Assembly: GCF_029893235.1 (NCBI RefSeq)
Contig: NZ_JARXWE010000002.1
Span: 124,001 to 188,000, forward strand
Reading direction: 5' to 3'
DNA: 64,000 bases
DNA from: Dysgonomonas sp. PH5-45
Lineage (GTDB): Bacteria; Bacteroidota; Bacteroidia; Bacteroidales; Dysgonomonadaceae
In this document: piece after piece, positions 30,846 to 57,683 of the stretch
Layout: each line of letters begins with the position of its first letter
Position numbering within the stretch: position 1 is the first letter of the stretch
Notes under the pieces: generated by a model
What the model was told of the DNA's origin: nothing
The model's database searches: none
The model's input: the letters and a program-made list of their open reading frames with translations, nothing else
Made by a program: the position numbers and the translations under genes

Positions 30846-30916
30846 TTGTCATTCTGAGCTTTAGTGAAGAATCAGTTTTGTGTAACAACAGATGCTTCCT
30901 ATCGTCAGCATGACAA
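30846..30916. repeat. Palindromic intergenic repeat (GTCATTCTGA type)
   Basis: A 71 bp unit with ends TTGTCATTCTGA (30846-30857) and TCAGCATGACAA (30905-30916), inverted with 11 of 12 matches. The inner arms (TTTAGTGAAGAATC versus GATGCTTCCTATC) also pair partly. It resembles the interior of the two MITE copies, which start GTCATCCTGAG and contain GATTCTTCACTTTG. Confidence 0.65.
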
Positions 30917-51814: not shown

Positions 51815-52020
51815 ACTCGTAGTACATTTAGAAAATAAAAACTAATTATCTAAAAATAACATATATCCAGTTTGTTATCCTGAGTGCAATGAAGGATCTT
51901 GAATAAAAACAGAGAGATTCTTCACTTTGTTCAGAAACAACGTTCGAGGAGCGTAGGTAACTCAATGACAGACATTTATAATGAGTGCTTTGATATAAAC
52001 TCTCTAAATGCACTACAGGT
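51815..52020. mobile_element. MITE-like element, copy 2 (206 bp) with 8 bp target duplication
   Basis: It has the same terminal inverted repeats as the copy at 9488-9704 (left ACTCGTAGTACATTTAGA; right, opposite strand, ACCTGTAGTGCATTTAGA) and is flanked by perfect TATAGAGA at 51807-51814 and 52021-52028. It aligns with copy 1 along its whole length with substitutions and small gaps. It has no coding capacity and sits between topA and the cobalamin riboswitch. Confidence 0.85.
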
Positions 52021-52128: not shown

Positions 52129-52136
52129 TATGTTTG
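52129..52136 (+). promoter_or_regulatory. Candidate -7 box for the cobalamin riboswitch transcript
   Basis: TATGTTTG matches TAnnTTTG and would start transcription near 52143, at the 5' edge of the riboswitch. A -33 element at normal spacing is not evident. Confidence 0.4.
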
Positions 52137-52139
52137 TAC

Positions 52140-52330
52140 CCAGTATTGGTTTTGCTTTTCCTTATCAGGATGGCGAATGAAAAGGGAATTAGGTGAAAAT
52201 CCTAAACAGTCCCGCTGCGGTGTGTTTTTTATGAAATTTGTGCAACTCTGTTTGCCACTGTTCTTATGGAAGAATGGGAAGGCGCACAAATAATGAAACG
52301 AGTCCGAAGACCTGCCAGTATTATTTTAGA
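52140..52330 (+). ncRNA. Cobalamin riboswitch without a downstream protein gene
   Basis: All conserved blocks of the adenosylcobalamin aptamer are present in order: AAAAGGGAATTAGGTGAAAA with TCCTAAACAGTCCCGCTGCG (52187-52220), the B12 box TTTGCCACTG (52251-52260), GGGAAGGCGC (52275-52284), and GAGTCCGAAGACCTGCCAG (52300-52318). In Bacteroidota such elements precede btuB or cobalamin synthesis genes. Here the plus strand has no gene before the convergent methyltransferase gene at 52599. The role of this copy is therefore open. Confidence 0.9.
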
Positions 52331-52598
52331 TATCTTTTATTTTAGCGAGGAACGAATAAAAGAATGGTATTTAAAATCAATGTGAATATTTTTATAATTG
52401 GGAGATGAAAATTCTTTTGTGAAAAAGGATTCTTTGTCTGAGTTTATTAGTATATAGGTTTCTTATTTCTGCAATCTATTACGGTCATGGCACTTCTTTT
52501 AAAAGAAAGTTTGTGTCTATTACGTGAAACAGATTGCATGAACAAAACGGTGTGAAATTGGCGTTTCATGCCGTTTTGTTTAAAAGACTTTCTTACCC
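52331..52598 (+). other. Structured non-coding tail of the riboswitch transcript
   Basis: No coding frame above 23 codons exists on the plus strand. The stretch contains an inverted repeat TGCAATCT (52470-52477) / AGATTGCA (52531-52538), a 14 bp palindrome TTCTTTTAAAAGAA (52494-52507) inside it, a direct repeat CTATTACG (52476, 52517), and a terminal hairpin. It may be a small regulatory RNA or a remnant of a lost gene. Confidence 0.5.
52541..52580. terminator. Strong, probably bidirectional terminator
   Basis: 17-base arms (52541-52557 and 52564-52580) pair with only a two-base mismatch around a short TTGGCG loop; the outer arms are AACAAAACGG and CCGTTTTGTT. It lies between the riboswitch transcript and the end of the convergent methyltransferase gene and could serve both. 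Confidence 0.8.
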
Positions 52599-53303
52599 TC
52601 ACTTATAAATCAAGAAAATACAAGGTTTCTTACCCATATCCGGCATTTGTTTTGCCCAATCCTTAACAGGAAGGGTTTTTATAAACTCATCCTCGCAGGT
52701 AATATTCATGGCAATACAAAGCTTGGTAGACGGTGTGCAGTTCCGCACAATATCTTCTACCAATTTAGTGTTCCGATAAGGTGTCTCTATAAATATTTGT
52801 GTCTGATGCTCGCTATATATTCTTTGCTCCAACTGCTTTATTTTCTTTATACGATCGGCTGTTTCAATCGGCAAATAACCATGAAAAGCAAAGCTTTGCC
52901 CATTAAATCCCGAAGCCATCAACGACATCAGTATGGACGAAGGCCCTACAAGGGGAATAACCCTTATGTTTTTCCGTTGGGCTATTGCTACTATATCAGC
53001 ACCCGGATCGGCAATAGCAGGGCAACCCGCTTCCGATATCACTCCCACATGAAAGCCTTTACCAATAGGTTGCAGATAGGTTTCAATCTGACGAGCATCG
53101 GTATGTTTGTTCAATTCATAAAAGGTAAGTTCGTCAATATTGATTGCCTGATCGGTCTTTTTAAGAAAACGGCGAGCCGAACGCACATTCTCTACAACGA
53201 AATGTTTTATGGTAAGGATTATTTCCTTGTTGTAAGATGGGAGAACATTCCCGACAGGAGTCTCGCCCAATGTAACAGGAATAAGGTATAACGATGCTTG
53301 CAT
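52599..53303 (-). CDS. RsmI-like SAM-dependent methyltransferase (tetrapyrrole methylase fold)
   Basis: 234 residues from the ATG at 53303 (MQASLYLIPVTLGETPVG); the longer frame to 53372 overlaps the divergent promoter and is rejected. It resembles RsmI (16S rRNA C1402 ribose methylation): GFHVGVISEAGCPAIADPGADIV, then IRVIPLVGPSSILMSLMASGFNGQSFAFHGYLP. Bacteroidota often carry this short RsmI relative in addition to true RsmI, so the exact target is uncertain. A candidate -7 box TATTTTTG lies at 53328-53321. Confidence 0.88.
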   Translation of the reverse strand: MQASLYLIPVTLGETPVGNVLPSYNKEIILTIKHFVVENVRSARRFLKKTDQAINIDELTFYELNKHTDARQIETYLQPIGKGFHVGVISEAGCPAIADPGADIVAIAQRKNIRVIPLVGPSSILMSLMASGFNGQSFAFHGYLPIETADRIKKIKQLEQRIYSEHQTQIFIETPYRNTKLVEDIVRNCTPSTKLCIAMNITCEDEFIKTLPVKDWAKQMPDMGKKPCIFLIYK

Positions 53304-53357
53304 TACTATTGAAATTTCGACAAAAATACATATTTTTACGCTAAAAACAGAGAAATT

Positions 53358-54755
53358 ATGCTCCTGCCCCAATCTTTCGAAGACCAGATAAAACCCTTAC
53401 TAAAGGACGAGTGGGATATTTTTGCTGATGCCCTTTCCACAGAAGCCCCTGTCAGTATCCGCTTGAATCCTGCTAAAGGCAAACTATTTTCGCCCAAACT
53501 CACAAATGTAGGTTGGTGTTCAATAGGTTTTTATCTCGAAAAACGACCCTCCTTCACGTTCGATCCACTTTTCCACGCAGGAACCTATTACGTACAAGAA
53601 GCTTCGTCTATGTTCGTCGAGCAGGCAGTAAAGCAGCATCTTGAAGGGGATGTGCGTTTTCTGGACCTCTGCGCAGCACCGGGCGGTAAATCGTCGCACA
53701 TAATATCTTTACTTTCGCCTAACAGCCTATTGGTATCGAACGAAGTTATAAGAAGCCGTTCGGAAGTTTTGGCCGAGAATATGACGAAAACTGGCTACCC
53801 GAACATTATCGTTACCTCAAACGACCCTTCCGAGATAGGCCGCAAAATGACTGATTATTTTGATGCTATTCTGGTCGATGCTCCTTGTTCGGGCGAAGGA
53901 ATGTTCCGCAAAGACAAGAACGCCATTGAAGAATGGTCGCCCGCCAATGTGCAGCTTTGCAAGGAACGGCAACAACGCATTCTCGCAGATGTGTGGGCTG
54001 CACTTAAACCCGGAGGATTACTAATTTACAGTACATGTACTTTCAATAAGGAAGAAAACGAAGAAAACATACTATGGATATGCGATAAACTCGGAGCAAA
54101 AACACTTTCGGTAAAAACCAACCCCGAATGGAATATATCACCTGCATACCAAGAATATGATATTCCCTGCTACCACTTTTTTCCTCACAAAACAAAAGGC
54201 GAAGGTTTGTTTCTTGCCGTATTAAGGAAAGACGGAACAATCACACAATCAATAAGTTCACTGAATTTAAAGAGCAAAAAGGGAAAAAACAGCGAAAAAA
54301 AATCTGTTCTCGCTCCTGAACATAAAGCTTATTTACGCGATAGCGACAGCTATCATTTTTTCGCTAAAGGAAATAACTGGTTTGCCTTTCCCAAGAGTTT
54401 ATATCCAGATTTTGAATATGTAACGTCCCACATGTACCTTATATCGGCAGGTATATGTATGGGTGAGTATAAAGGTAAAGATTTTATACCCCACCAATCA
54501 TTGGCGTTGTCAATTGCTCTTAATGATACTGTTTTTCAAAGTTACGAGGTAGATAAACCAACAGCAATAGCTTACCTCCGGAAGGAAGCCTTGTCGCTTC
54601 CTGATATTGCCAAAGGTTACATTCTGCTCACATTTCAGGGTATACCGTTAGGCTTTGTGAAAAACATAGGCAACAGGGCTAATAACCTGTATCCTCAAGA
54701 TTGGCGTATACGTTCGGGGCATATTCCCGAAAACACGGAAAATCCTTTACTTTAA
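53358..54755 (+). CDS. RsmF/NOL1-type RNA cytosine-C5 methyltransferase
   Basis: 465-residue enzyme of the NOL1/NOP2/Sun family. SAM motif: LDLCAAPGGKSSHI; catalytic motifs: ILVDAPCSGEGMFRKD with the Cys of PCSGEG, and LIYSTCTFNKEENE with the second Cys of the TCTF motif. The C-terminal ~190 residues contain the RsmF-type additional domain (KGNNWFAFPKSLYPDFEY, then LPDIAKGYILLTFQGIPLGFVKN). It modifies rRNA or tRNA; RsmF of E. coli acts on 16S C1407. It is divergent from the RsmI-like gene. Confidence 0.92.
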   Translation: MLLPQSFEDQIKPLLKDEWDIFADALSTEAPVSIRLNPAKGKLFSPKLTNVGWCSIGFYLEKRPSFTFDPLFHAGTYYVQEASSMFVEQAVKQHLEGDVRFLDLCAAPGGKSSHIISLLSPNSLLVSNEVIRSRSEVLAENMTKTGYPNIIVTSNDPSEIGRKMTDYFDAILVDAPCSGEGMFRKDKNAIEEWSPANVQLCKERQQRILADVWAALKPGGLLIYSTCTFNKEENEENILWICDKLGAKTLSVKTNPEWNISPAYQEYDIPCYHFFPHKTKGEGLFLAVLRKDGTITQSISSLNLKSKKGKNSEKKSVLAPEHKAYLRDSDSYHFFAKGNNWFAFPKSLYPDFEYVTSHMYLISAGICMGEYKGKDFIPHQSLALSIALNDTVFQSYEVDKPTAIAYLRKEALSLPDIAKGYILLTFQGIPLGFVKNIGNRANNLYPQDWRIRSGHIPENTENPLL

Positions 54756-54951: not shown

Positions 54952-55025
54952 GGTGTGGTAGTTCAGCTGGTTAGAATACCTGCCTGTCACGCAGGGGGTC
55001 GCGGGTTCGAGTCCCGTCCATACCG
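54952..55025 (+). tRNA. tRNA-Asp (anticodon GTC)
   Basis: A complete cloverleaf: acceptor GGTGTGG pairs with CCATACC (one G-T), the anticodon stem CCTGC/GCAGG encloses loop CTGTCAC with anticodon GTC, and the T arm is GCGGGTTCGAGTCCCGT. The discriminator base is G and no CCA is encoded. A mobile element begins directly after its 3' end, with an integrase gene 298 bp downstream, so the tRNA is the probable integration site and remains intact at this junction. Confidence 0.97.
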
Positions 55026-55061
55026 CGGAAAGCCTAAGTCAATAGGCGCCAAAAAAGAGAC

Positions 55062-55094
55062 AAGTCCTTCATATTCAGTGAATATGAGGGACTT
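55062..55094 (+). terminator. Terminator after tRNA-Asp
   Basis: A 15 bp stem (AAGTCCTTCATATTC / GAATATGAGGGACTT, one G-T pair) with a 3-base loop is followed by TTTTTTT. It ends the tRNA transcript or insulates the element's integrase genes. Confidence 0.9.
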
Positions 55095-55152
55095 TTTTTA
55101 TTTATGTTGTCTTAGGAAAAAGCCAAAATAAAGCCAAAAAAAGACATTTAGT

Positions 55153-55266
55153 GTGTCCCATTTCATACCCCAAACCAAAAAGGGACACAGGGGGTACGAG
55201 AAATCAAAGAAAAAGGGGTACGAATTGTCCAAAATTGGCAGTGTGTTGTCGGGAATTGGCAGTCTG
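55153..55266. repeat. Cluster of short repeats upstream of the integrase (probable attachment/arm sites)
   Basis: Three repeat families are packed in 114 bp: GGGGTACGA at 55191 and 55215 (24 bp apart) with an inverted near-copy TCATACCCC at 55163; AATTGGCAGT at 55233 and 55254 (21 bp apart); and an inverted pair GTGTCCC (55153) / GGGACAC (55182). Helical-turn spacing next to an integrase gene and a tRNA suggests recombinase arm sites or excisionase sites. No coding frame is present from 55026 to 55323. Confidence 0.6.
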
Positions 55267-55323
55267 CATAAAACTCATTAACAGATAGTTTACTTTAATT
55301 TTGTAACATTAAAAAATGAGTTT

Positions 55324-56766
55324 ATGAAAAGTACATTTAAAGTTCTTTTCTTTTTGAAAAGAGACAAGCAAAAATCCGATGGCAGTGTTCCTATCATGTG
55401 CCGGATTACAATCGACGGACAAATAAGCCGTTTCAGTACCAAATTAAATGTGCATCCTAAATCATGGGATGTAAAGTCGTCAATGGCTCTGGGCAGAACA
55501 AAAGAAGCTGTCGAGATAAATACCTTTCTGGAAACAATTAAAACAGGCTTATACAACGTTTACCATGATTTACTCACCAAAGAGAACAATGTTAATCCTG
55601 ATCGGGTTAAAAATATCTTTCTTGGTCTTGAAATTAAAAACCAAACCGTACTCGAATTATTCCAACGGCATGTTGATGATATCGCTAAATTGGTTGGTAT
55701 AAGCAGGGCAAAAGGTACACTTCAAAAATATGACGTAGCCCGTAGGCACATGGCTAATTTTATTAAAGAGTATTATAATGTTGCTGATATTTCTTTGAAA
55801 GAGGTAAATCACTCCTTTTTGAGAAATTTTGAAGTGTACCTAATGACAAGCTGCAAATGTAAGGAAAATACTACTGCTAAATTCTTACAGCGATTCCGCA
55901 CTATTATTCTTTTCGCCAAAAATAACGGTTGGATTCACATTGATCCTTTTGCCAACTATAAAATAAAGTTTAAGAAAGTCGATAGAGGCTATTTAATGCA
56001 AGAACAAATAGACGAAATCATGAAGAAACAATTCTCTTCTGAACGTTTGGAGCGAGTAAGAGATATCTTTATTTTTAGCTGTTATACCGGACTTTCCTAT
56101 ATAGACGTAAAAGGATTGGATGAAAGTAATATCCGCATTTCATTTGATAATAATTTGTGGATAATGGGGAAACGTGAAAAGACAGGTACAAGCTACAATA
56201 TTCCATTACTCGACATTCCAAAGCAAATTATTGAGAAGTATAAAGGGACGATGCCCAATAAGAAAGTTCTCCCTGTTCCAAGCAATCAAAAAGTGAATGA
56301 ATATCTCAAAGAAATCGGAGCTGTTTGCGGTATTGACAAAGATTTAACATTTCATCTTGCAAGACACACTTTCGCCACTCTTACGCTTACAAAAGGAGTT
56401 TCCATTGAAAGTGTATCAAAAATGTTAGGTCATACAAACATAAAAACTACCCAAATTTATGCAAGAATTACCGATGTTAAGGTAAGCAACGATATGGCTT
56501 CTTTTGCTGAAAAACTTGAAGAAAGGCGAATCAAATCTAAATCTAATTTAGATAAACTTTTTGAATGCCTTTCATTGCATGAAAAAATGGCTTTATTTAA
56601 TCTTCCCGGCACTCTGTCTGATGATCCCGAAAGATTAAAGCGTATATCTGTCATGTGGCATAGCCTTTCAGAAGAAGAAAAATTATCTCTCTGGTCTAAT
56701 ACTTTTGAAAATGAAGGCAATCTCACTTTTAAATCGGAAAAAGCCAATACTCAATTAGCTGTTTAA
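55324..56766 (+). CDS. Tyrosine recombinase / integrase (catalytically intact)
   Basis: 480-residue Bacteroidota-type site-specific recombinase. An arm-binding domain occupies ~1-95 (STFKVLFFLKRDKQKSDGSVP), a SAM-like core-binding domain ~110-210, and the catalytic domain ~220-395. Catalytic residues seen: Lys in GKREKTGTSYNIPL, HLARH with His344 and Arg347, GHTN, and Tyr379 in TTQIYARI. The first catalytic Arg is replaced by Ser (YTGLSYIDV), as is known for IntDOT. About 100 residues follow Tyr379, a longer C-terminal tail than usual. It probably catalyses integration into tRNA-Asp. Confidence 0.93.
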   Translation: MKSTFKVLFFLKRDKQKSDGSVPIMCRITIDGQISRFSTKLNVHPKSWDVKSSMALGRTKEAVEINTFLETIKTGLYNVYHDLLTKENNVNPDRVKNIFLGLEIKNQTVLELFQRHVDDIAKLVGISRAKGTLQKYDVARRHMANFIKEYYNVADISLKEVNHSFLRNFEVYLMTSCKCKENTTAKFLQRFRTIILFAKNNGWIHIDPFANYKIKFKKVDRGYLMQEQIDEIMKKQFSSERLERVRDIFIFSCYTGLSYIDVKGLDESNIRISFDNNLWIMGKREKTGTSYNIPLLDIPKQIIEKYKGTMPNKKVLPVPSNQKVNEYLKEIGAVCGIDKDLTFHLARHTFATLTLTKGVSIESVSKMLGHTNIKTTQIYARITDVKVSNDMASFAEKLEERRIKSKSNLDKLFECLSLHEKMALFNLPGTLSDDPERLKRISVMWHSLSEEEKLSLWSNTFENEGNLTFKSEKANTQLAV

Positions 56767-56786
56767 CCCACTAATTTTTAATAGTA

Positions 56787-57683
56787 ATGAAAAAAAATGA
56801 ATATTCAACAGTAATAGCTCTGTTCGACGAGTATAATAAGAATGTATATAAGGTTAAAGCCTTATCTACCTACCTGAAATATGAAGCGGTGAGAAACTAT
56901 ATCGCTGATTACATTAAACAACGATATGGGAAAGTTGATTACTTGCTGTCCGAAATCGACGTCAATTTCATAATAGGTTTTGAAAATTACCTGATGAAGT
57001 TTCGCAAATATAACGTAAACACAGCCGCCAAGAAAATAGAATTATTCCGTCGTATTGTAAATATAGCCTGTGAAAAACAGGCTATATCCAACAACCCTTT
57101 TAGCCATTACCGGATTAAAAGGCAAGAGGTAGTTCGTGCCTTCCTTTCGGAAAAGGAGTTACAGTCTATTTTGAGCAAAAAGTTTTCGACTAAAAGACTT
57201 GAACAAGTAAGGGATGTATTTATCTTTTCCTGTTTTACAGGTCTGAATTATTCAGACTTATCAATGCTAACAACCGAAAATTTTGAAACAGATAAAGACG
57301 GTAATCCTATTATCAAAATTATGCGGAGCATGACATATACACCTGTTATAATCCCTTTGCTTTCAGTTCCGCAGAAAATTTTGAATAAGTACAGTCAAAA
57401 TTTACCGATAGCAAGTAATCAAAAGATGAATGATTATTTGAAAGAAATCGGTGATATTTGCGGTATTGGTAAAAATCTCACTTTCAGGGTTGCAAGAAAC
57501 ACATTTGCGACTACTATTACCTATATGAATGGGGTACCCATTGAAACAATATCCCGAATGTTAGGACATACCAATATAAATACAACCCAAACATTGGTAC
57601 GAATGGATAACGGAAAGATTGGGCGGGATATGTTGAAATTATCAGAACACCTTACAGGTATGGATACTGCATTAAACCTCTAA
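56787..57683 (+). CDS. Inactive tyrosine-recombinase paralogue
   Basis: 298 residues, clearly related to the integrase just upstream (shared VRDVFIFSC, ...KMNDYLKEIGDICGI..., GVPIETISRMLGHTNI), but lacking the ~100-residue N-terminal arm-binding domain. The active site is lost: the catalytic Tyr is Leu270 (TTQTLVRM), His of box II is Arg234 (FRVARN), the beta-strand Lys is Met (RSMTYT) and Arg I is Asn (TGLNYSD). Only Arg237 and the GHTN His remain. The frame is fully open and starts 20 bp after the first integrase. It could modulate recombination or regulate the module; this is inference. Confidence 0.85.
   Translation: MKKNEYSTVIALFDEYNKNVYKVKALSTYLKYEAVRNYIADYIKQRYGKVDYLLSEIDVNFIIGFENYLMKFRKYNVNTAAKKIELFRRIVNIACEKQAISNNPFSHYRIKRQEVVRAFLSEKELQSILSKKFSTKRLEQVRDVFIFSCFTGLNYSDLSMLTTENFETDKDGNPIIKIMRSMTYTPVIIPLLSVPQKILNKYSQNLPIASNQKMNDYLKEIGDICGIGKNLTFRVARNTFATTITYMNGVPIETISRMLGHTNINTTQTLVRMDNGKIGRDMLKLSEHLTGMDTALNL

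Follow-up and report, generated by a model that had tools for sequence, protein, structure and literature searches.

A Cobalamin Riboswitch Without a Downstream Gene in Dysgonomonas sp. PH5-45 and a Gene-Less Riboswitch RNA of a Sister Genus

What does a cobalamin riboswitch regulate when no gene follows it? A B12 riboswitch is usually interpreted as controlling the adjoining downstream gene. The question is raised by positions 52129–52583 of a 64,000-nt stretch, called the window here, on contig C2 of the 2.65-Mb genome of Dysgonomonas sp. PH5-45. The initial annotation of this stretch described a complete B12 aptamer, about 210 bases with nested inverted repeats and a strong terminator, and then a gene in the opposite direction; it proposed either a small RNA under B12 control, as in some Firmicutes, or the deletion of a btuB-like gene. 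If the former is true, the influence of a riboswitch could extend to distant genes and have the opposite sign, and riboswitches annotated without a gene in gut and environmental Bacteroidota genomes merit re-examination.

In Enterococcus, EutX is a trans-acting gene-less RNA behind a B12 riboswitch. Rli55 of Listeria is reported to be likewise a gene-less, trans-acting RNA behind such a riboswitch, and AspocR of Listeria monocytogenes a noncoding RNA under a B12 riboswitch that is made at full length without B12 (PMC8079631). From Bacteroidota, no B12-riboswitch-driven noncoding RNA was found in the open-licence PMC papers searched.

Parts of the Locus

The observation as a whole is confirmed, and the parts of the locus are collected in Table 1. 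The aptamer is indeed complete, covering positions 1–189 of the RF00174 model (cmscan E-value 6.3e-25; gathering cut-off 31.5 bits), and the nested inverted repeat, the strong terminator and the oppositely directed gene are all present. The tail is gene-free and terminated, at about 250 bases (52334–52583) and not about 210.

Table 1. Features of the riboswitch locus, in window coordinates.
Feature	Position	Strand	Basis
Promoter -7-type motif TATGTTTG (TAnnTTTG)	52129..52136	+	sequence
Cobalamin riboswitch aptamer RF00174, full length	52130..52333	+	cmscan, 103.9 bits
P13-like hairpin immediately 3′ of the aptamer, CGAGG in loop	52334..52363	+	fold, -4.0 kcal/mol
A+T-rich, weakly structured stretch, no long ORF	52364..52469	+	sequence, ORF list, folding
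Nested inverted repeat/long hairpin TGCAATCT...AGATTGCA	52470..52538	+	folding
Intrinsic-terminator-like hairpin AACAAAACGG...CCGTTTTGTT, then TTAAAAG	52541..52580	+	hairpin scan
ORF taken to be rsmI (16S rRNA methyltransferase), convergent, outside riboswitch control	52599..53372	-	ORF

The TAnnTTTG sequence, which we take to be the Bacteroidota promoter motif, is present around the start of the aptamer in 121 of 146 riboswitches of the family Dysgonomonadaceae, against 7/177 and 12/439 control windows. The P13-like hairpin was equalled in stability by 4 of 200 shuffles. At the P13 position, TTCGNG is present in 129 of 147 family riboswitches and absent from 18; the window belongs to these 18, and to the eight of them that retain CGNGG.

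Folding of 52320–52600 gives -76.4 kcal/mol (z = -5.98), and none of 200 dinucleotide shuffles was as stable; with the terminator excluded (52364–52540), z is -3.17 and two of 200 shuffles were as stable. The T-run of the terminator sits largely within the 3′ arm of the hairpin, and a simple terminator scan reports a shorter stem at 52559–52573 followed by TTTTGTTTAA. Among the 146 family riboswitches with usable downstream sequence, only two have a stronger hairpin adjoining a T-rich stretch in the first 330 nt past the aptamer.

The tail has no sense ORF of at least 40 aa. ATG ORFs starting in it encode 14 aa (at 52364), 22 aa (at 52487) and otherwise at most 5 aa, and a 32-aa ATG ORF begins within the terminator at 52568 and extends beyond it. 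It would be conceivable that the riboswitch controls translation of the 14-aa or the 22-aa peptide, as Cys-rich small proteins (71–99 aa) stand behind six of the 148 cobalamin riboswitches listed for the family. Both candidates are far shorter than these proteins, however, the 22-aa ORF lies within the strong hairpin, and no relative was found in which coding could be assessed; we regard a peptide product as very improbable.

The Aptamer and the Locus Compared With Relatives

The window aptamer appears largely intact, and by score it is not decayed: it reaches 103.9 bits, and the genome's two other riboswitches, both upstream of TonB-receptor-like genes, reach 100.3 and 99.3. Standard pairs are formed at 43 of the 51 model pairs; for some of the remaining eight, the consensus itself is not standard. 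Aligned with 150 other aptamers, the window aptamer agrees at 48 of the 52 columns whose conservation is at least 95%; three other aptamers equal or exceed its four deviations, one of which changes an A that is invariant in the other 150. Two of the deviations may compensate each other: at two columns, T and A are universal among the other 150 aptamers, and the window carries G and C instead. Read as CUG/CAG to CGG/CCG, in a register of our choice, this double change would keep a Watson-Crick helix, which suggests covariation. Because Rfam pairs the positions in a different register, with their neighbours, where its consensus itself is not Watson-Crick, the double change is a hint of covariation and not a proof.

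These features bear on the explanation by deletion. In this account, the riboswitch-controlled gene, most likely for a btuB-type receptor, was lost, and the promoter, aptamer and leader were left at a terminator shared with rsmI, so that an RNA would still be made but would be functionless. The changed invariant A and the branch length of the aptamer, the third longest of the 151, agree with such a relic, as does the number of RF00174 riboswitches in this genome (three, versus 10 and seven in two nominal genus mates). Presumed TonB-receptor genes of the family start 48–346 nt 3′ of the aptamer, a range of leader lengths into which the remaining tail fits. On the other hand, the aptamer score is undecayed, the double change may keep the helix, and no sense ORF of at least 40 aa remains. 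We consider gene loss a serious contender at somewhat less than an even chance. The Rfam register of the double change shifted our estimates, lowering that for a B12-controlled RNA slightly from an even chance and raising that for gene loss slightly.

Conservation of the tail was the check proposed in the initial annotation, and the tail proved not to be conserved. In the 100 other genomes of the family it has a single 38-nt match, to an unrelated hairpin, and in 294 other genomes of the order only matches of 27–51 nt, in 12 genomes, none of them credible. This agrees with gene loss. The window RNA is like AspocR and the Rli55/EutX kind in being gene-less with its own terminator; its noncoding part is without the conservation seen as typical of a B12-riboswitch-controlled noncoding RNA, and thus the window is not classed as a proven case.

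The locus itself was seen in this genome only, among the loci scanned, which again fits gene loss. A match to rsmI is present in 98 of 101 family genomes, in some of them as a distant paralogue only. Near rsmI, a search with a riboswitch regular expression, which detects 30 out of 33 loci that are positive in Rfam, was negative for 27 other family loci (L070–L096), for both genus mates (L036, L037) and for 80 named loci; the flanks searched measured 1.5 kb, or 6 kb if the contig was long enough. An Rfam scan of the rsmI loci of both genus mates also gave no riboswitch, and a different gene lies behind rsmI in these two. Near topA, 30 loci including that of the window were scanned, and the 29 others have no credible aptamer core. 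A loose match at the topA locus L376 was rejected, having no Rfam match; the same loose pattern matches 11 of 109 further rsmI loci by chance. A gene directly after the same aptamer in relatives, which would have spoken for deletion, was thus found at none of the rsmI or topA loci scanned.

The RsmI and TopA proteins of this genome are nearer to those of three other genera (g6, g14 and g15; up to 82%/79%) than to those of the genus mates G001 and G002 (74–77%/69–71%), and from these identities the genus assignment of the genome may be off.

The convergent arrangement invites another explanation, in which readthrough of the terminator would yield a B12-controlled antisense RNA to rsmI. There is a precedent in Listeria, where AspocR, of 1,400 nt and antisense to pocR, is reported to be shortened to 230 nt by B12 (PMC8079631). 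In the window, a strong terminator lies between the RNA and rsmI, 242 nt past the aptamer and ahead of the convergent gene, and no riboswitch stands beside rsmI in the other loci scanned. We also know of no link between rsmI and B12, and we give this explanation very little credence.

Riboswitches Without a Gene in the Dysgonomonadaceae

RF00174 matches are found in 94 of the 101 family genomes. Among the matches listed, 148 riboswitches were taken into the census, of which 146 have usable downstream sequence and two end at contig ends. The genes behind those listed fall into groups that we name by presumed function: 61 TonB receptors, 22 reductase-like, 12 thrE-like, and smaller groups including an mmdA-like one. 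In two genomes (L012/L014 in G001 and G002), a pair of cobalamin riboswitches is spaced by about 400 nt; a gene for a Cys-rich small protein follows the first and an mmdA-like carboxyltransferase gene the second.

Four of the 146 riboswitches are gene-less: the window, L054 (in G032), L282 (in G020) and L272 (in G026, with a tandem aptamer). ORFs of at least 60 aa that start within 500 nt are absent behind L261, L272 and L282, and those behind L054 and the window are all spurious; L261 is followed by a gene at +534. Protein starts were read for one member per group and for singletons, so that the count of four could miss copies behind spurious ORFs. At L272 (G026:C1:390213-390417), cobalamin aptamers stand in tandem; the stretch between them has a terminator-like hairpin but no gene.

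The strongest terminators within 330 nt downstream of the 146 riboswitches are those of L054 (-25.7 kcal/mol), L282 (-22.4 kcal/mol) and the window (-20.5 kcal/mol), at 279, 268 and 242 nt from the aptamer, respectively. Because any gene-less copy is expected to end in a terminator, these three show likeness and not function.

There is a conserved case. A search with the L282 tail showed that its 3′ module also occurs once each in G026, G032, G007 and G082, that is, altogether in five of the six genomes of one sister genus; the sixth (G083), without a module match, is 62% complete. Rfam confirms an aptamer upstream of the module in all five (loci L302–L306: G020, G026, G032, G007, G082), with the module match beginning 373–418 nt past the start of the aptamer-core match. 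Three of these five riboswitches lie outside the 148 of the census. The layout of the unit is a promoter region, aptamer, P13, a gene-free stretch of about 250–300 nt and a strong terminator. Its 3′ module consists of a hairpin, an invariant unpaired GTGTTTTAGTATT and the terminator.

The unit is found in two genomic settings, behind a thrE-like operon (G032, G007 and G082) or beside another shared gene (G020 and G026). Between the settings, identity is 78–85% in the module (65 columns), 68–72% in the aptamer and 31–35% in the middle, while the flanks reach 30–53% upstream and 25–46% downstream. Two of the 23 module pairs are changed on both sides. The downstream genes differ across the copies, which argues against a protein product, and a convergent gene is next to the unit in three of the five genomes. 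A same-strand ORF lies about 330 nt further on in G026 and about 75 nt in G082, and for these two genomes the module could also serve as a conditional terminator for same-strand genes.

A covariance model of the module (R1) scores the five copies at 89–103 bits, with one strong match per genome. In G007 (41 bits) and G082 (34 bits), a weaker match closes the neighbouring thrE-like operon; the unit may therefore derive from that operon, an origin at which these copies hint. Other candidates were rejected as members of the unit: a match in G016 (36.5 bits) has other genes around it and no aptamer, one in G033 (13.9 bits) is inside a carboxylase-like gene with no riboswitch, and 13 further genomes matching the L282 tail are similar at P13 or over short stretches only.

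The window tail, too, was considered as a homologue of the sister-genus RNA, and this homology is unproven. R1 has no match in the window's own genome at E 0.001 with strict filters, and nothing on the rest of contig C2 at E 1; within the window its best match (10.1 bits, E 2.3) is far from the riboswitch locus. The likeness of 52440–52458 to the unpaired stretch is by eye only. The window and the unit share the promoter region, aptamer, P13, gene-free stretch and strong terminator; they differ in the tail, which has no model match, and in their neighbours, and in the tree of 151 aptamers that of the window stands apart from those of the sister genus. Ordinary riboswitch leaders of the family have the same aptamer, promoter position and P13 as the window, but a gene follows them, and their terminators are weaker than those of L054, L282 and the window.

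Possible Roles of the RNAs

Since gene-less, terminated B12-riboswitch RNAs are conserved in five of six genomes of another genus, the small-RNA alternative of the initial annotation becomes credible for the window; that two other gene-less copies of the family belong to this conserved unit also speaks against gene loss. Lack of conservation of the window tail weighs on the other side, and deletion of a btuB-like gene keeps the standing given above. On balance, we lean slightly towards a B12-controlled RNA and away from a relic of gene loss: the chance that the locus makes a noncoding RNA of about 440 nt under B12 control, with a tail acting in trans, seems to us just short of even.

Such an RNA would comprise, in order from the promoter, the cobalamin aptamer, the P13 hairpin, a tail of about 220 nt with the long hairpin, and the terminator. 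Full-length RNA would accumulate without B12, and on binding of B12 it would be destabilised or ended early. The tail would act in trans on another mRNA or on a protein; with the riboswitch OFF in the presence of B12, the effect on the target would be ON, that is, its sign would be inverted. The parallel with Firmicutes drawn earlier is apt in this logic and not in architecture. As with AspocR, Rli55 and EutX, a B12 riboswitch would lead into a noncoding, gene-less RNA. Rli55, however, sequesters EutV via an ANTAR element, and no ANTAR-type hairpin pair was recognised by eye in the window tail.

The gene-less riboswitch RNA of the sister genus is probably a more important finding than the window locus. 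Its conservation makes the idea testable in a named isolate: G026 matches Dysgonomonas capnocytophagoides DSM 22835, now Indolivaga in the NCBI taxonomy, at 100% over 1200 bases. The best candidate target of this RNA is the translation start of metH, the gene for the B12-dependent methionine synthase, and by its complementarity we rate it a lead. GGTGTTTTAGTATT in the RNA is the exact complement of metH codons 6–10 in I. capnocytophagoides (G026, L399 on G026:C3).

The pairing was compared in G026 and G007, the two genomes in which metH was located, against 1314 gene starts from loci of many genomes. The G026 score is reached by one of the 1314 gene-start windows, metH itself being among the loci sampled; in G007, the pairing run with metH is 10 nt, and equally long runs occur in 29 of the 1314. 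A duplex-energy comparison did not decide the matter, with 21% and 2% of random stretches being as good. With at most one mismatch, the complement pattern has 107 matches in five genomes versus 112 for the reversed control, showing no enrichment, and of the 75 distinct matches whose surroundings were inspected, four are in sense near a start codon. Exact complement matches outside the RNA itself number four, one being the G026 metH start and the rest lying within or across from other genes. Matches to AATACTAAAACAT in the four other sister genomes, considered as candidate metH sites, were not metH on inspection.

Taken further, B12 riboswitches of the Dysgonomonadaceae would control small RNAs that act in trans by pairing with the metH start, being made without B12 and silencing metH, and disappearing with B12; the window RNA would be a fast-evolving member of this group or a convergent second case. 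We consider this broader scheme unlikely.

Two observations concern other parts of the window. Similar intergenic stretches at 51875–51965 and about 30850–30900 (TCCTGAGTGCAATGAAGGATC and TCATTCTGAGCTTTAGTGAAGAATC) resemble a dispersed repeat. At 54952–57683, a tRNA-Asp gene is followed by two ORFs, presumably tyrosine-recombinase-like, and the region resembles a site of mobile-element integration.
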